The notes beneath the pieces were generated by a model. That model had not been told where the DNA came from and ran no database searches. It saw only the letters and a list, made by a program, of their open reading frames with translations. Made by a program: the position numbers and the translations under genes. This document shows, piece after piece, positions 1,896 through 14,135 of a DNA stretch of 22,196 nt. Position 1 is the first letter of the stretch, and every line of letters begins with the position of its first letter. Origin of the DNA: a virus; the IMG/VR virus record IMGVR_UViG_3300009183_000399, positions 1-22,196 of that record, one strand, 5' to 3'.

Positions 1896-1938
1896 CGTGT
1901 TGCAAGCTCCCCCTGCTTGCATTACATCACCCGCAGAT

Positions 1939-3591
1939 ATGAAAAACAAACTGAGCCTTTGCGTCATCACCGGCAACGCCGAAAACTACATCACCCGTTT
2001 CCTCGATCATTTCGAGAAGATCGCCGACGAGATTATTGTGGTGAGGGCAATCGGCAACCAAGAGCCAGATAACACGCTGAAGATCGCCATGCAGAGCGGG
2101 TGCATCATCGGCGAGTATCTCAACTTCCACGACTGGCCGCACGTCGATGACTTCGCGGCAGCTCGCAACGCTGCCCTCGACCTCGCCACCGGCGACTGGC
2201 TCATGTGGGCCGATACGGACGACATCATCACGCCGGAGGACTGCGCAACGATCCGCAAGATGCTGCCGCAGCTCGGTGACGACATCCAAGGCGTGCTCAT
2301 GCCCTACGCTGTTCCCGACGATGGCATCACATTGCACCGAGAACGCCTCTGGAGGCGAGGGGCGGCGCGGTGGCACAACCCCATCCATGAGTCGCTCAAG
2401 TTCGCCCCTGACGTTCCTATGGCTCGTTTCGACAAGGTGCAGATCCTCCACCTCCCCCACGGCAAGCGCAAGGCCACCAGCGACGAGCGCAACCTGCGGA
2501 TTCTTCGCTCGATCCCCGAGGACGAGATCACAAGCAGCCAGCTATTTTACACGATGCAGAGCGAGCGGGCGCTCGGCCAGATCGAGGAGGCGAGCGCAAC
2601 TGCGGCCAAGCTCTGCATGGCACCCGACGCAGGGCAGCCTGAGCGCTACGAGGCGTTTCTCGTCATGGGTCAGATGGTGCCGGACGCAGCCACCCGTTCG
2701 CAGCTCTACCTGCAAGCCATCGCCGTTTCACCTGATCGGCGCGAAGCATACGCCGAGCTGGCAATGGAGGCTCTGAAAGCCAACCAGTTCCCGCTCGCGC
2801 TTAGCTGGTCTGAGGTGATGACCTGCCTGCCGCAGCCATCGGCATGGTGGTGGAACAGCCGCAAGAAATTCTACGGCTGGCAGGGCGTGCAGGTGCGCGG
2901 CATGTGCCTGCGGGCGAACGACCGCTACGAGGAGGCCGATGTCATCGAGGCGAACCATTTCGCACGGCACGGCGCGAAGATCAGCCTGCTCCATGCCACC
3001 CGCGGCAGGCCAGCGATGGCCTACAAGGCACGGGCGACATGGCTTGACAGGGCAGCAGACCCCGACGCGATCGAGCACATCTTCGCACTAGATCCAGACG
3101 ATGAGACAATCGGGCCGTTTATCACTTGCCGCCACGTTCTCAACTCTGGTCAAGGACCGGTGGCAGCATGGAACGAGGCGGCAAAGTTTTCCAATGGCGA
3201 GATCCTCATCCAACTCAGTGACGACTGGCAGCCGCCCATGCACTGGGACAAGCTCATCCTCAAGGCGATGGGTGACACATCCAAACCGGCTGTCTTAGCA
3301 GTATCGGACGGACACCGCACCGACAACCTGCTCTGCATGGCGATCCTGACCCGTGCTCGCTATAAGGTGCAGGAATACCTCTTCCACCCTGAGTTTTTCA
3401 GCATGTTCTCCGACAACCACTTCACCGACCGTGCATACGCCGACGACGTGGTGATCGAGGCGAAGGAGATCGTAATCGAGCACATGCACCCGGCGTTCGG
3501 ACTTGCCGAGATGGATGAGACGTATGCCCGCAGCAACGCGCCGGCAAACTACGAAGCTGGGCTGGCAACCTACGAAAAATTGAAGGCATGA
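1939..3591 (+). CDS. Two-domain GT2-type glycosyltransferase with helical-repeat linker
   Basis: The 550-residue protein from ATG 1939 opens with a beta strand (LSLCVITGNAENYI) as in GT-A folds. It has the DFAAARNAAL motif (71-80) and the metal/nucleotide-binding DTDD at 92-95, typical of GT2 enzymes that add sugars from nucleotide sugars. Residues about 195-340 look like TPR-type helical repeats. From about 348 (KISLLHATRGRP) a second GT-A-like domain follows, with SDDW at 427-430. The family KNE motif near the N-terminus appears here as GNAE. A GTG at 1855 in frame is rejected because it would place coding sequence through the terminator. The next gene starts at the overlapping ATGA. Expected to act in the host cytoplasm on a virion protein or host surface precursor; the acceptor is unknown. 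Confidence 0.82.
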   Translation: MKNKLSLCVITGNAENYITRFLDHFEKIADEIIVVRAIGNQEPDNTLKIAMQSGCIIGEYLNFHDWPHVDDFAAARNAALDLATGDWLMWADTDDIITPEDCATIRKMLPQLGDDIQGVLMPYAVPDDGITLHRERLWRRGAARWHNPIHESLKFAPDVPMARFDKVQILHLPHGKRKATSDERNLRILRSIPEDEITSSQLFYTMQSERALGQIEEASATAAKLCMAPDAGQPERYEAFLVMGQMVPDAATRSQLYLQAIAVSPDRREAYAELAMEALKANQFPLALSWSEVMTCLPQPSAWWWNSRKKFYGWQGVQVRGMCLRANDRYEEADVIEANHFARHGAKISLLHATRGRPAMAYKARATWLDRAADPDAIEHIFALDPDDETIGPFITCRHVLNSGQGPVAAWNEAAKFSNGEILIQLSDDWQPPMHWDKLILKAMGDTSKPAVLAVSDGHRTDNLLCMAILTRARYKVQEYLFHPEFFSMFSDNHFTDRAYADDVVIEAKEIVIEHMHPAFGLAEMDETYARSNAPANYEAGLATYEKLKA

Positions 3592-3794
3592 GTCACAAAG
3601 GCGACTGGCACCGGCTGGGCGATGCACCGGCATACCGAAACAACTACGACGCAATTTTTAGAAAAAACAAAAGCAATGATCCTATCCATACTGACCCCGA
3701 CGATACCGGGACGCGAGAAGCAGCTGCAATCCCTCCAACAAAAGATCGAAAGACAGATCGGCGGGCAAGCCGTCGAGCACCTGATTCTGAGTGA
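3588..3794 (+). CDS. Small phage peptide (KGD...NYDAIF type), probably ending near 3679 by a -1 shift
   Basis: The gene starts at an ATGA overlap with the glycosyltransferase stop. Its first 27 codons give a compact peptide (MSHKGDWHRLGDAPAY, then RNNYDAIFRKN) resembling the very short phage proteins with a KGD/KGS start and an N-x-D-x-IF end, from memory of such families. The open frame runs on to 3794, but the last 40 codons overlap the next gene out of frame and look like a shadow. An in-phase A AAA AAC heptamer lies at 3662-3668. A -1 slip there gives three more codons and a TGA at 3677-3679 that overlaps the ATG of the next gene. So the true product may be about 30 residues. A one-base loss in the A run is the alternative. 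Function unknown. Confidence 0.55.
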   Translation: MSHKGDWHRLGDAPAYRNNYDAIFRKNKSNDPIHTDPDDTGTREAAAIPPTKDRKTDRRASRRAPDSE

Positions 3795-4239
3795 CAACCG
3801 CAAGCGCAGCATCGGCGCGAAGCGGCAGGCACTGCTCAACATCGCGCGGGGGCAATACATCGCGTTCGTGGACGATGATGACGACATTGCCGACAACTAC
3901 GTCGAGGAGCTGCTGACTGCCGCAGCCAGCGGTGCCGACGTGATTACGTTTATGCAGGCGGCGACCTACAACGGCAAAAAAAGCGTGGTCGATTTCCAAC
4001 TGCGGCAAGTCGATCAGTATTTTAATCCAGGCGGCATCACGATCCGAGATGCGTGGCACGTCAACGCATGGCGCAGATCCCGCGTAGCGCATTGCCAATT
4101 CGGCGAGACGAACTACGGCGAGGATTTAACATGGTGTCTGCAAGCCCGGCGGATGGCCGAGACGACCGTTCACATTCCAAAGATCCTGCACTTCTACCGC
4201 CACGACGCAGCGACCACCGCGGCGCCGGAGCCAAGTTGA
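3676..4239 (+). CDS. GT2-family glycosyltransferase (single GT-A domain)
   Basis: From ATG 3676 the 187-residue protein begins MILSILTPTIPGREKQLQ, the usual GT2 first strand and loop. It carries SIGAKRQALL followed by YIAFVDDDDDI, an extended DxD metal-binding motif. Later NYGEDLTWC matches the ED motif with the likely catalytic base, and it ends with LHFYRHD. The frame is open back to 3622, but the added residues do not resemble a GT start. The leader is A-rich without Shine-Dalgarno. It follows the two-domain glycosyltransferase and the tiny peptide gene, so these probably act in one glycosylation pathway. Short for the family, so acceptor recognition may be supplied by a partner. Confidence 0.8.
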   Translation: MILSILTPTIPGREKQLQSLQQKIERQIGGQAVEHLILSDNRKRSIGAKRQALLNIARGQYIAFVDDDDDIADNYVEELLTAAASGADVITFMQAATYNGKKSVVDFQLRQVDQYFNPGGITIRDAWHVNAWRRSRVAHCQFGETNYGEDLTWCLQARRMAETTVHIPKILHFYRHDAATTAAPEPS

Positions 4240-4618: not shown

Positions 4619-5143
4619 ATGCAACCAACTCTCCTGCGCGACTACCAAGGCCAACCCGTTGACGGATGGCTGATGAGCGAGAAGCTCGACGGCTGGCGCG
4701 TTATGTGGAACGGTGCTGAGTTCGTGACTCGCGAGGGCAACGTGCTGGCCGCCCCCGCATGGTTCAAAGCTGGCATGCCAGCGGTCGCACTCGACGGCGA
4801 GCTGTTCGCCGGTCGTGGCAATTTTAACGCGATCCAGACACTCATGGCCGCAGGCTGGCACGGCCTGACCTTTCAAGCGTTCGACGCGCCAAGCGCCGCA
4901 CCGTTCCGCGCCCGCTACAAGCACCTGCTGACCCTCGACCTCCCCGCCCACGTCGGCATCGTCAAGCAGATCCGCTGCACTGACACCCGCCACCTTGTCG
5001 AGTATGCCGATGAGATCGTCATCGCAGGCGGCGAGGGTGCCGTGGTGCGCAACCCACGCGCCCGCTACGTCGCCGGACGCACCGACGACGTTCTGCGCTG
5101 GGTGCCGCAATGCCCGCGCATGAATCGCCGCAAGGCTGCGTGA
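4619..5143 (+). CDS. ATP-dependent DNA ligase-like protein, adenylation domain only
   Basis: The 174-residue protein has motif I EKLDGWR (21-27, nucleotide-accepting Lys22), the TREGN segment (37-41), motif III LDGELF (58-63), an aromatic-rich stretch at 84-89 like IIIa, and motif IV EGAVVRNP (139-146). This identifies a covalent nucleotidyltransferase of the ATP-dependent DNA ligase type. Motif V, normally a K-x-K after strand LLK, reads VLRWVPQ at 158-164 with no lysine, and there is no OB-fold: the chain stops ten residues later in a basic tail. Full phage ligases have both. It may therefore be a minimal ligase, a partner-dependent enzyme, or a degenerate copy. It sits alone among head-to-tail genes with its own promoter, like a moron gene. 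Confidence 0.85.
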   Translation: MQPTLLRDYQGQPVDGWLMSEKLDGWRVMWNGAEFVTREGNVLAAPAWFKAGMPAVALDGELFAGRGNFNAIQTLMAAGWHGLTFQAFDAPSAAPFRARYKHLLTLDLPAHVGIVKQIRCTDTRHLVEYADEIVIAGGEGAVVRNPRARYVAGRTDDVLRWVPQCPRMNRRKAA

Positions 5144-6321: not shown

Positions 6322-6696
6322 ATGGCCGCCACAGTTTACACCGCATCCACCGCCGCAGATCTTGAGTATGGCATCGTCAATGAGACGAACATCATTCTCA
6401 CCTCATTCTCCCGCAACGTCAGCTCGGTGAAAACCGAAGTGCGCGATGCGGACAACGATGTTGTCGCCGTAGCCTATTCCGGCCTGACCGCAGCCATCAC
6501 GCTTGATGGATTCATCAACGGCACCGCGACCTATGACGTGGCCGCCCTGCTCACCCTCGCCAACGACACCGACACCAGCGGCCTGAGCGGCGGCACGATC
6601 ATCGTCGATTCTGTCAATGAGTCCACCGCTCAAGGCGAGTTCAAGCGCATCTCAGTCTCGGCAACGCAATACGCGTCCACGATGACCGAAGCCTAA
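6322..6696 (+). CDS. Major tail (tube) protein candidate
   Basis: The 124-residue protein is rich in Thr, Ala, Val and Asp and consists mainly of short beta strands (TNIILTSFSRNVSSVKTEV, then VAVAYSGLTAAITLDGFING). Together with its position between the tail-terminator candidate and the tail-assembly chaperones, this points to the tail-tube subunit. It is short for that role. A hairpin follows its stop codon, which would fit high independent expression. No Shine-Dalgarno is present; the leader is aactcttcaaactt. Confidence 0.65.
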   Translation: MAATVYTASTAADLEYGIVNETNIILTSFSRNVSSVKTEVRDADNDVVAVAYSGLTAAITLDGFINGTATYDVAALLTLANDTDTSGLSGGTIIVDSVNESTAQGEFKRISVSATQYASTMTEA

Positions 6697-7140: not shown

Positions 7141-7548
7141 ATGAGCATAGAACTAATGACAGACGACGAGGCACTGCGCGAGCAGGGCATGACCGAAGGC
7201 AACAAGAACATCAGCGGCATTACGATCCGCCCCATGACGGCCTTGAGCTTGTCATGGCTGCAACGCAACGACGTGTTCGGCGATACCGGCGATTCGATGC
7301 AGAAGACCGCAGCGTTCGTCTATCTCCACAGCCAGCCGCGCGAAGTGATCCGCGCCGTGGTGAACGACCGCAACGCCTTCCTCGACGCGGTTGACGACTG
7401 GATCGAAGTCAACTTCCCGCACCATTCCCAGCTCTCGCCATACAGTGACCTCATGACCGAGGCCATGAACACCTACCTCGCCGCGTCATCCAGCGCGGTG
7501 CAGGAGGCTGGAGGCATTGCCACCGCCGGAGCTGCGAGAAAAAACTAG
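7141..7548 (+). CDS. Tail assembly chaperone, short form (gpG-like)
   Basis: This 135-residue acidic, mostly helical protein sits directly before the tape measure gene. It contains GITIRPMTALSLSWLQRND, and the segment HSQPREVIRAVVNDRNAFLD is typical of helical assembly chaperones. It ends AGAARKN then TAG at 7546. The last sense codons AGA AAA AAC hold the heptamer A AAA AAC at 7539-7545. In lambda and most siphoviruses, G and the frameshift product GT bind the tape measure and recruit tail-tube subunits. The initiation site is SD-less (taattacaaaaat). Confidence 0.85.
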   Translation: MSIELMTDDEALREQGMTEGNKNISGITIRPMTALSLSWLQRNDVFGDTGDSMQKTAAFVYLHSQPREVIRAVVNDRNAFLDAVDDWIEVNFPHHSQLSPYSDLMTEAMNTYLAASSSAVQEAGGIATAGAARKN

Positions 7549-7606
7549 CCATCCCCAACTGGCTTGCGAGCTATGCCTGGCGCATAGCGAGCATCACCGG
7601 CTGGGG
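7539..7606 (+). promoter_or_regulatory. Programmed -1 ribosomal frameshift site with stimulatory stem
   Basis: The slippery heptamer A AAA AAC (7539-7545) is in phase with the gpG-like frame and directly precedes its TAG stop. Seven bases downstream begins a stem: CCCCAACTGG (7553-7562) pairs with CCGGCTGGGG (7597-7606), ten positions with one A-C mismatch and one G-U pair. Inside it lies a perfect 7-bp hairpin, GCTATGC (7570-7576) with GCATAGC (7582-7588). Heptamer, spacer length and stem match the standard -1 frameshift signal. Confidence 0.9.
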
Positions 7607-7763
7607 CTACGCTGAAATTATGGAGGAGCTACCGATTGCGGCAGGCTTGCAGATCCTCGACTGCGACTCATACGCAGCCGGTCACCAGCGCACCTACCGC
7701 AACGATGCAACGCCGTTTGACTCCCGCGCTCTAATAGACAACGCATTCGCTAAATTATTATGA
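7545..7763 (+). CDS. Tail assembly chaperone T domain, made only as -1 frameshift fusion (gpGT-like)
   Basis: After a -1 slip at 7545 the ribosome reads CTA GCC ATC and translates 72 more codons (LAIPNWLASYAWRIAS and onward) to a TGA at 7761-7763. There is no suitable start codon for independent expression. The full fusion is about 207 residues. The T part is rich in Trp, Ala and Tyr and includes WGYAEIMEELPIAAGLQIL, like T domains that interact with tail tube subunits. Its TGA overlaps the tape measure ATG as ATGA, so the two are coupled. It is too short and start-less to be found by ordinary gene calling. Confidence 0.87.
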   Translation, partial: LAIPNWLASYAWRIASITGWGYAEIMEELPIAAGLQILDCDSYAAGHQRTYRNDATPFDSRALIDNAFAKLL

Positions 7764-9892
7764 GCCTCGACGTAAAGTTTTCAGCCACCGATGCAGGGTT
7801 CACCTCTACCGTTTCGAAGGTCAAGACTTCGGTCAAGAGCATGGATGACTCAGTGGCAAAAACCGCCAGCTCGGTCAAAACATCCTTCGGTTCAATGGTC
7901 AAAGCAGGTGCTGCGCTGGCCGTGGGATTCGGCGCAATCAAAGTTGCCGGTGCTGCGATCGCTGGCACGTTCGAAACGTTCAAGGACGCGCTCGACCTCG
8001 GCGGCACGATGAAGGATCTGAGCGCACGGACAGGCGAGACAGCAGGCAACCTGATGTTGCTCAACCGCGCATTCGATAACAGCGGCGTAGGTGCTGACAA
8101 GGTCGGCACGTCGATCAACAAGCTCCAGAAGTTCATGGATGACGCTGCTCAAGGCAGCGAGAAAAACAACACGGTTCTCACTCGCCTTGGCCTAACGATG
8201 GCTGACATGGCAGGCAAGACACCGACCGAGCAGATGGCCATGCTTGCCGAGCGGTTTAAGGGAGTCACCGACAGCGGCGAGCGGTCGGCACTTGCAATAA
8301 GCATCTTTGGCAAAGCAGGCGGCGTGCTCCTGCCGCTGCTCGCAGATTTCAGCGGTGAGATGAAGACCGCGCAAGACCAACTTGGAAGCATGCCCGGCGT
8401 GCTAGATCGCAGCGCCGGAGCCTTCGATAATATCTCTGACAACATCAAGGTGGCAAAGGGCAAGTTTCTTGAGTTCGCCGCAGGGCTATTGGAAAGCATC
8501 GCCCCCGCGCTGGAACTGGCTACCGACCTGATGACTCGGTTCGATGCGGCAGGGGCAGGCATGAAGCTGGGCGAGATTCTAACCGGCGCATCAAACGCGA
8601 TGGGCGGATTTACCGACGCACTCAGCGCCATCAAGCTCGGCGAGTTTGGGCTGGCGTTCAAGATCGCCTTTGAAAGCATTAAGCTGCAAGCCGCCGACTC
8701 GATCAACTCCATCGCCGCAAACGTGATGGCAGCCGTCCAAGCAGCAGGCGCGTTCTTGCTGGCGGCGTTCGGACCGGGCAGCGGCATCTATACAATTATC
8801 GAGGCTCAAATCAACAAGCTGTCACTTAAAATGAAGCTGGCTTTCGAAGAAGCAAATCCTTTACGAGATGAACTGGTCATTGATGGATTAAAGCAGGCAA
8901 TCAATAGCAGTGAAAAATTGATAAAAACTGCAATGGGCGTCATTGGAGAAGATTTTGCACGTGCCGGACAAGAGTTCTCCAAGACCTTCGACTCAGCACT
9001 CAGCAGCAGCAAGCAACTCATCGACACCTCGGCGATGGAGGTGAAGCTGCAAGAGCACCGAAACGAGCTGAAAAAAATGGAGGCTATTGCCGCTGCCGAC
9101 GCAGCTGCCTCTGCCGCTAACAAGCTGACCGTCGAGGAGATGAGCGTGAAGACCGCACAAGACCGGCTGACGCATGAGAATCGCATCAAAGAGCTGGATG
9201 CAGACATCGCCTCGGCAAAGCGCAAAGGCAATGCAGAAGAGCTTGCCGCGCTTGAAGCAATGAAAGCCTTTCACCTTGAACTGCAAGCGTCAAAGGAGAA
9301 AGGGCTAAGTCTCGACGAGGCCATGGCCAATGCCAACAAAGCACGCCAGAACATTATTGACGGCGTGATTGAGAAGAACAAAAAAGACCTTGAAGGCAAA
9401 AAGCAAATCACCAAGGAGCTCGAAAAACAGCTCGGCCTCGGTGCAAAGATCATCGCAGATGCAAACGCAGCCGAACGCAAAGATCGACTTGATCCCGGTG
9501 GAAAAATGGAAAAGGCGGCTGCTGAAGCTCAAGGCAAAGGTAACTTTGCTGCCGCCCGTCGCATTGGCCGCCAAGTTCAAAGCCGTGAGTTTGATCGTGC
9601 CTTTCAAGAAGCATTTGGAAAGAAAGAAGGAGGCCTTGGCAAAAGCGTAACAGACATTGCCAAAGAGCAAGGCATTGACACTTTTGGTAAAACGAAAAGG
9701 CAGCTACAAGAAGAGCTGATGAAAAAGCGCCAAGCCGAAATGAAGCCCGGCGCCGAAGGCAAAAAGGGTGACAAGCCCGGCGAAGCACCTAAGCCCGCAC
9801 CAGAAAACCTCCTGCAAAAATCAGTGGACGCGATCAAGACGGCCGTCGAAAGCCTCGAAAGGAAACTACCAATGCCCGCACTAGGGTTCTAA
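7760..9892 (+). CDS. Tail tape measure protein
   Basis: At 710 residues this is the longest complete protein of the window. It determines tail length and sits inside the tail tube until DNA ejection. The N-terminal segment is helical with many KT/KS heptads (VSKVKTSVKSMDDSVAK), followed by a hydrophobic stretch at about 47-72 and the TP901-type core (MKDLSARTGETAGNL, then a conserved ALAISIFGKAG and VLLPLLADF). A second hydrophobic stretch (about 316-338) could help cross a host membrane. Residues about 420-540 are coiled coil, and the C-terminus is Lys/Pro-rich. At roughly 0.15 nm per residue it predicts a tail near 105 nm. Bases 8790-8950 and 9590-9720 are visibly more AT-rich than the rest. 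Confidence 0.92.
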   Translation: MSLDVKFSATDAGFTSTVSKVKTSVKSMDDSVAKTASSVKTSFGSMVKAGAALAVGFGAIKVAGAAIAGTFETFKDALDLGGTMKDLSARTGETAGNLMLLNRAFDNSGVGADKVGTSINKLQKFMDDAAQGSEKNNTVLTRLGLTMADMAGKTPTEQMAMLAERFKGVTDSGERSALAISIFGKAGGVLLPLLADFSGEMKTAQDQLGSMPGVLDRSAGAFDNISDNIKVAKGKFLEFAAGLLESIAPALELATDLMTRFDAAGAGMKLGEILTGASNAMGGFTDALSAIKLGEFGLAFKIAFESIKLQAADSINSIAANVMAAVQAAGAFLLAAFGPGSGIYTIIEAQINKLSLKMKLAFEEANPLRDELVIDGLKQAINSSEKLIKTAMGVIGEDFARAGQEFSKTFDSALSSSKQLIDTSAMEVKLQEHRNELKKMEAIAAADAAASAANKLTVEEMSVKTAQDRLTHENRIKELDADIASAKRKGNAEELAALEAMKAFHLELQASKEKGLSLDEAMANANKARQNIIDGVIEKNKKDLEGKKQITKELEKQLGLGAKIIADANAAERKDRLDPGGKMEKAAAEAQGKGNFAAARRIGRQVQSREFDRAFQEAFGKKEGGLGKSVTDIAKEQGIDTFGKTKRQLQEELMKKRQAEMKPGAEGKKGDKPGEAPKPAPENLLQKSVDAIKTAVESLERKLPMPALGF

Positions 9893-12785: not shown

Positions 12786-14135
12786 ATGGCAACTCAAGTC
12801 ACAGTCAATGCCGGCCAAGGCTCAACACAGGTGACAGTCATCACCGGCGAAGGATCGACGAGCTACAAGGTAGAAGCTGGATCACGCGGCCCAGTTGGAG
12901 CCACCGGAGCAGCAGGAGCCAACGGAGCCACCGGAGCCACCGGAGCCACCGGAGCCGCGGGCCCGAACACGATCACGACTTCGACAACATCGAACCTGAC
13001 TGGTTTTATCGCTGCGAACGGAACGGCAGTCAGCGGAGCAACGGCAGGTGTTACAGCAGCCACCGCAAACACGCTCGCCCTGCGAGATGCCACAGGCGGA
13101 GCTTTCTTCGCAGACGTCGGAGCATCATCGGTTACATCGGACGGTGACATCAAGATAAGTGGAGAAACAGGCGTGATCTGGACAGAAGGATCAGCTGGTC
13201 ACATCTACACAATCTCGGGCCACATACAGTCAGGCTCAACATTCAAACTTTACAACGGCACCTACACCACCACGCTCTCCCACAGCCCGACAGCAAACCG
13301 AGCGATTGCATTTCCGAACAAGGCAGGCACGGTGGCGATGATCGACTCGGAGACGCACACCGGAGCGCACGCGTTCAGCAGCACCACCCGCCCGACATCA
13401 GCAGGCACAGGCACGCCAGAGGCGACGAGCTTGATTACGCTTTCAGACCTAGCTGACAGGCAACATTTTATTCGGCACCTTTACAACACATTATCAGGGA
13501 CAGCGAGCGGCGTCGGAGCAACATCAAGACGGGCTGTTGCTAACGGTATTGTTGACGGAGACATATCCACATTGGGAATTAGTGGATCTTACTATCGTGT
13601 GAACACTCCATCATTTAATCTTGCTGGCAATGCTGCAGCAGGAGCCCTTTATTTCGGGAGAAAATGGTCAATTTTATTGTCTGCTGGGCTGAACTTTACG
13701 ACAAACATTTCAGCGTATTGGATTATCGGAGGAGACGGCACAGCCGGAATAGTGGCTTCTGGAGATCACTTTGGAGTTGAGTTTACCAATAATACTAACG
13801 TTAGGCTGTACAAGTGTGTGAGCGGAGTGATCACCACATCTTCAACCGTCGCGCTGCCAAGCAACACCATTGCAACTGGAACAAGCCAGACAAGTGTTTT
13901 TTACCTATGGCTGGACAACGACGGAGTTGGGACGGTTTCGCTGCGAATCGCTAGTCAATTATATGCCGCATCTACACCTGAAAAGCCATCCACTGCACTT
14001 GCCACCCTAGCAGTTACAACGTCTGGCATCACTGGCACCAGCGCTAATAATGGGATGTATATCCGAGCCACTGGAACACCCGGAACATTTGCGGGATTGG
14101 CCGTGTATGATCTTAAAGTTAACAATTCACCGTAA
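12786..14135 (+). CDS. Collagen-like tail fibre / receptor-binding protein
   Basis: The 449-residue protein starts with two imperfect beta repeats (TQVTVNAGQGS, TQVTVITGEGS). About nine Gly-X-Y triplets follow at about 32-60 (GSRGPVGATGAAGANG and onward), which would form a trimeric collagen-like stalk. A linker with beta and coil segments (ATANTLALRDATGGAFFADV) follows, and then a C-terminal domain from about 215 that looks globular and beta-rich. The C-terminal part (bases 13440-14130) is more AT-rich than the stalk, as expected for an exchangeable receptor-binding head. It is the last and largest protein of the tail-tip set. Confidence 0.78.
   Translation: MATQVTVNAGQGSTQVTVITGEGSTSYKVEAGSRGPVGATGAAGANGATGATGATGAAGPNTITTSTTSNLTGFIAANGTAVSGATAGVTAATANTLALRDATGGAFFADVGASSVTSDGDIKISGETGVIWTEGSAGHIYTISGHIQSGSTFKLYNGTYTTTLSHSPTANRAIAFPNKAGTVAMIDSETHTGAHAFSSTTRPTSAGTGTPEATSLITLSDLADRQHFIRHLYNTLSGTASGVGATSRRAVANGIVDGDISTLGISGSYYRVNTPSFNLAGNAAAGALYFGRKWSILLSAGLNFTTNISAYWIIGGDGTAGIVASGDHFGVEFTNNTNVRLYKCVSGVITTSSTVALPSNTIATGTSQTSVFYLWLDNDGVGTVSLRIASQLYAASTPEKPSTALATLAVTTSGITGTSANNGMYIRATGTPGTFAGLAVYDLKVNNSP
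12924..12956 (+). repeat. Tandem 9-base repeat coding for collagen triplets
   Basis: Three perfect copies of GGAGCCACC (12924-12950) plus a partial fourth encode GAT triplets. The repeat can expand or contract in 9-base steps without breaking the frame, changing stalk length. Confidence 0.85.

Follow-up and report, generated by a model that had tools for sequence, protein, structure and literature searches.

The 22,196-base stretch of DNA analyzed here (the window; positions 1-22,196, one strand, of IMG/VR record IMGVR_UViG_3300009183_000399, an uncultivated virus) carries, at the end of a G-like gene, a conserved arrangement that we read, with a probability of about 95%, as a programmed -1 ribosomal frameshift signal, by which two predicted tail assembly chaperones would be made from one gene. 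Most ribosomes would decode AAA AAC and terminate at TAG, which yields G (135 aa). A minority would move back one base on A AAA AAC, continue with CTA GCC ... and give a G-T fusion of 207 aa, and a stem 7 nt downstream would assist this slippage. By analogy with lambda gpG and gpGT, G would bind the tape measure protein and the T part would recruit the tail tube subunit. The signal is conserved at more than 100 related sites, which very probably means that the known tailed-phage mechanism operates here. The coordinates of the features are collected in Table 1.

Table 1. Features of the predicted G/GT frameshift region, in window coordinates
Feature	Position	Strand	Basis
G-like tail assembly chaperone gene (putative), 135 aa, stop TAG	7141..7548	+	ORF; conserved protein in relatives; third-position-biased substitutions upstream of heptamer
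Slippery heptamer A AAA AAC, in 0-frame phase	7539..7545	+	Codons AAA 7540 and AAC 7543
0-frame stop TAG, adjoining heptamer	7546..7548	+	Sequence; stop adjacent at 104/104 sites
-1 frame T extension, 72 codons from CTA 7545, stop TGA 7761-7763	7545..7763	+	Conserved T protein; third-position-biased -1-frame substitutions after heptamer
Outer stem, 5' arm (7-nt spacer after heptamer)	7553..7562	+	RNAfold; pair counts; synonymous-shuffle tests
Outer stem, 3' arm	7597..7606	+	RNAfold; pair counts; synonymous-shuffle tests
Inner hairpin, 5' arm	7570..7576	+	RNAfold; exact 7 bp mainly in near relatives
Inner hairpin, 3' arm	7582..7588	+	RNAfold; exact 7 bp mainly in near relatives
Tail tape measure protein gene	7760..9892	+	phrog_8462 (E = 5e-20) and phrog_9483 (E = 1.5e-14), both 'tail length tape measure protein'

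Coding evidence for the frame change

Homologues were gathered from IMG/VR by scans with G, T and their alignments, from genome contigs, and from 388 genomes belonging to the phylum of a Verrucomicrobiaceae MAG. The resulting site set comprised 104 distinct 74-nt sites. T, the first residues of which overlap the site, served to gather many of these loci; a further 32 contexts, outside the first set, came from searches with the G sequence or profile, in which T was not used.

The 3' end of the G gene reads ...GA AAA AAC TAG. A first reading of the sequence alone (the sequence-only reading) had placed the heptamer in phase and directly before the TAG, and had described a -1 frame of 72 codons, an ATGA junction with the tape measure gene and a fusion of 207 residues (135 + 72). 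All of these hold by coordinates, the ATGA junction arising where the tape measure ATG overlaps the TGA of T. No obvious Shine-Dalgarno sequence was found at the ATG start of G. Copies of A AAA AAC number 7 in the window against 2.6 expected, so the heptamer alone is not rare and its count was rejected as evidence by itself. What goes beyond chance, judging from the sequences, is the position of the heptamer (in phase, next to the stop and ahead of a long -1 ORF) together with its conservation in relatives.

Substitution patterns were compared between the window and four near relatives. Differences from one of these (L010) at codon positions 1/2/3 numbered 7/3/30 in the G frame before the heptamer and 1/0/16 in the -1 frame after it. 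The substitution pattern changes frame at the heptamer, consistent with protein selection on the G frame before it and on the -1 frame after it. As the -1 frame is open for 18 nt or less upstream of T in 27 of the 104 sites, the shift is confined to the heptamer region. Readthrough of the stop was rejected, because the conserved protein lies in the -1 frame and not in the 0 frame, and because the identity of the stop varies.

Single-base indels are common in A runs, and a frame change at such a run could be a sequencing or assembly error, or the mark of a decayed gene. The chance of this is negligible: it is refuted by the independent contigs, 104 distinct sites showing the same arrangement with different heptamers and stops, and substitutions are third-position-biased in both frames.

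T could instead be a separate gene, expressed from an internal start or by translational coupling at the G stop and involving no frameshift. Phage genes often overlap and re-initiate, and most relatives have an ATG at T codon 27. In the window, however, the -1 frame has no ATG, GTG or TTG from the upstream stop to codon 27, and a start at codon 27 would drop the most conserved part of T (K1, L2, P5, W7, Y11, T19, W21 and E25). Three relatives (L037-L039) lack the codon-27 ATG, none of the listed starts has a Shine-Dalgarno match by a simple test, and the heptamer would be left unexplained. We therefore consider a separately started T very improbable.

Conservation of the heptamer and the adjacent stop

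The sequence-only reading had proposed that related genomes be searched for the heptamer and the open -1 frame. Both were found at 104/104 distinct sites, each with an in-phase X XXA AA(C/G) directly before a stop, and the interpretation as a -1 frameshift signal giving G and GT is supported by this conservation in homologues. The heptamers were GGGAAAC (66 sites), AAAAAAC (29), CCCAAAC (6), AAAAAAG (2) and GGGAAAG (1), and the adjacent stops TAA (63), TAG (36) and TGA (5). The rule of a heptamer plus an adjacent stop was also obeyed by all 32 contexts found without T. In a phylogeny from which the heptamer codons had been left out, at least 5 switches of the first triplet between AAA, GGG and CCC are seen. 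At each switch three bases change together, so that Lys, Gly or Pro is exchanged in G while slipperiness is kept. Switching of the triplet as a whole unit is what selection for two-tRNA slippage would predict.

These heptamers also bear on slippage of RNA polymerase on the A run, which would give mRNAs with an altered number of A and thus a fusion without ribosomal slippage. The window does have a run of six A. In a distant Verrucomicrobiota relative (L191, 1466-1476), a run of ten A lies near a G/T-like junction and is a candidate for transcriptional or ribosomal slippage in place of a standard heptamer. Against this, only three consecutive A are present in GGGAAAC and CCCAAAC, the heptamers of most relatives, and a conserved stem lies at the distance of a ribosomal stimulator. 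Transcriptional slippage is accordingly given only a very small probability for the window.

Two other distant Verrucomicrobiota relatives, L190 (1498-1522) and L192 (minus strand, end of ORF 1641-2054), carry an in-phase C CCA AAC, with the G stop 15 nt after the heptamer and not adjacent to it. An adjacent stop is therefore a trait of the nearer group, and the wider family does not always have it. L007, L008 and L009 have, around 3400, G homologues in which A AAA AAG TAG occurs together with a diverged T; in these the outer stem is absent from its usual register, and another stem can form.

RNA structure downstream of the heptamer

Folding of 7546-7612 with RNAfold gave both nested stems (-30.5 kcal/mol, z = -2.55 against dinucleotide shuffles). 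This is the structure described in the sequence-only reading, namely a 7-base spacer and a 10-position stem enclosing a perfect 7-bp hairpin. The outer stem has 9/10 pairs, with a single A-C mismatch (A7558 x C7601) that the wording '10-position' allows, and the enclosed hairpin has 7 perfect pairs. In a 131-nt context the fold energy was not significant (z = -0.74), and single-sequence folding is therefore weak evidence by itself. A search of Rfam gave nothing at the gathering threshold in the window and only chance-level matches at 7480-7680. On direct reading of the window, no Shine-Dalgarno-like element was seen at the usual distance upstream of the heptamer.

The outer stem keeps 9-10 pairs in 99/104 sites. 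Across 44 sequences, 92.7% of pair cells were paired in the outer stem and 71% in the inner stem, and the covariation score was above those of all 500 shuffles and all slid registers. An independent-pairs covariation test was not significant, there being few independent stem substitution events on the tree. Both-sided changes occur in the outer stem at pair 15-68 (CG/GC) and pair 20-63 (AU/GC). At the second of these, base 63 follows base 20: where base 20 is G, base 63 is C in 50 cases and T in 2, and where base 20 is A, base 63 is C in 26 and T in 24. In two relatives (L032 and L019) a long outer stem is retained, with its register shifted.

Dinucleotide shuffles do not make a fair control for this region, because the bases that pair here also specify conserved residues. 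A control was run on 17 clade representatives in which the protein was held fixed and synonymous codons were shuffled. For the window alone, the whole fold was better than such shuffles (p = 0.002) and the outer duplex was no better than they were (p = 0.16). For the 17 representatives, the combined p was 2e-20 for fold energy and 2e-14 for the outer duplex; the Fisher combination assumes independent clades, an assumption that holds only roughly. The mean z was -3.36 at the stem, compared with -1.4 to +0.7 in the other tested segments of G and T.

The stem could nevertheless be a by-product of conserved protein motifs (P-N-W ... T-G-W-G), without a role of its own, in which case the heptamer alone would shift. 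The paired codons do encode conserved residues, synonymous shuffles already average 7.4/10 outer pairs, and the outer duplex of the window taken alone is unexceptional. This explanation is unlikely, since the synonymous codon choice of the clade representatives favors the stem, and only here, since base 63 follows base 20, and since L032 and L019 retain the stem in another register. The stem thus appears to be under selection beyond protein constraint, and we infer a stimulatory role for it.

An inner fold was favored overall (combined p = 2e-10) and in several clades, its exact form differing between clades. The perfect 7-bp hairpin occurs mainly in the close kin of the window and in a few others. 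The proposed check for conservation of the stem was thus borne out for the outer stem and not for the strict 7-bp inner hairpin, in place of which other clades have a different, often still favorable, inner fold.

Comparison with known frameshift signals

A conserved tail chaperone frameshift of dsDNA phages was reportedly described by Xu, Hendrix and Duda in 2004. The window has in common with lambda G/GT an in-phase X XXY YYZ close to the end of the gene that precedes the tape measure gene, a -1 ORF that extends the chaperone, and a short G with a longer GT. Lambda requires gpG in balance with a small amount of gpGT; the tape measure protein is bound by G and the tube protein by T (PMC5009743). 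Lambda has G GGA AAG with a stop 15 nt after it, whereas the window family has an adjacent stop and a conserved 10-position stem. The gap between heptamer and stop is 18 nt in P2, and averages 26 nt in the SEA-PHAGES training data, nearly all of which are tail chaperones (PMC10885494).

Caulobacter phages phiCbK (A AAA AAC TAA) and CcrColossus (G GGA AAC TGA) share both the heptamer classes and the adjacent stop with the window family (PMC3556154). These sites (L197 9278-9287 and L198 16055-16064) are accompanied by a G dissimilar to that of the window family, and the -1 extension of the Caulobacter phages is longer. As both phages have it, the adjacent stop was dropped as a feature unique to the group of the window. 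Eukaryotic RNA viruses likewise have a stop directly after a slippery heptamer (PMC4373837) and differ in genes and stimulators. The bacterial -1 cassettes of dnaX and IS elements have in common with the window a heptamer followed by a stem-loop a few nt downstream; the window family differs from them in having AAC and not AAG as the second codon at most sites, and in its adjacent stop.

Two published results count against the frameshift reading. A_AAA_AAC shifts far less readily than A_AAA_AAG in E. coli (PMC5009743), and in HIV-1 reporters a stop right after the slippery site lowered frameshifting through competition with the release factor (PMC4373837). A second codon AAC is of the mammalian-like type, and is used by haloarchaeal viruses too (PMC5009743). 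Frameshifting was measured at 6 and 7% for two HK97-like chaperone genes (PMC3711429); by analogy, an efficiency of a few percent seems a reasonable guess for the window.

The adjacent stop, invariable as it is, may keep the G:GT ratio low or tune it. We tentatively suggest, as a possibility that we hold to be doubtful, that a stop directly following X XXA AAC functions within the signal. Slippage would then compete with the release factor, the G:GT ratio would follow the speed of termination, and the layout, together with that of the Caulobacter phages, would form a recurrent termination-coupled class outside the E. coli model. The family is well suited to studying why AAC slippery codons, weak in E. 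coli, are used by some phages, and whether an adjacent stop tunes the ratio. It also allows a single phage frameshift signal to be aligned in depth across natural variants, among which are three heptamer triplets, two second codons, three stops and a protein-constrained stem.

Protein families, host and gene neighborhood

The kind of signal is already known from the lambda G/GT arrangement. On sequence comparison the G/T family is new, as it has no database model and no isolated phage: G and T matched no PHROG, Pfam or NCBIfam model, and tblastn with G and with T gave no match in isolated phages. Neither protein had detectable sequence similarity to lambda G or T, and in profile comparison G had no match to the G of lambda, HK97 or phiCbK. 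Tail chaperones have low sequence similarity between phages (PMC5009743). The structure model of G (pLDDT 73) had no match in the PDB with E <= 0.001 and weak matches only in BFVD; uncharacterised phage proteins came first there (E = 0.1), and N15 GT and two Gordonia tail chaperones followed only at E = 0.6-2. The structure model of T was of low confidence.

The putative label of chaperone for G and T rests on gene order and architecture. The late gene order of the window is of the long-tailed-phage type, running from a ClpP-like protease and scaffold region through the major capsid protein, small head-tail genes and small genes of tube size to the tape measure gene. The G gene is directly upstream of this PHROG-supported tape measure gene, which is the known place of G/GT (PMC5009743). 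To this extent the chaperone label of the earlier reading is qualified, as no family model matched G or T. A putative tail chaperone family without a database model is added here, from phages of a phylum that has been little sampled; its GT product would escape ordinary annotation. The host is probably in Verrucomicrobiota, as indicated by two contigs (L034 and L188); the assignment is tentative because both could be misbinned phage contigs.

Within the same neighborhood, the ORF at 6322-6696 has about the right place and size for the major tail protein gene, with no PHROG, NCBIfam or above-cut-off Pfam match. Two family 2 glycosyltransferase genes (1930-4239) stand between the major capsid gene and the next head-tail genes. 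A 174-aa ORF inside the head-tail module (4619-5143) had a weak match to ATP-dependent DNA ligase (PF01068, E = 3e-4, below the curated cut-off) and carries an EKLDGWR motif, suggesting a short ligase-like adenylation domain in an odd location. A possible tail-fibre protein is encoded at 12786-14135; close to the N-terminus it has a short collagen-like repeat, which gave a weak match to PF01391.
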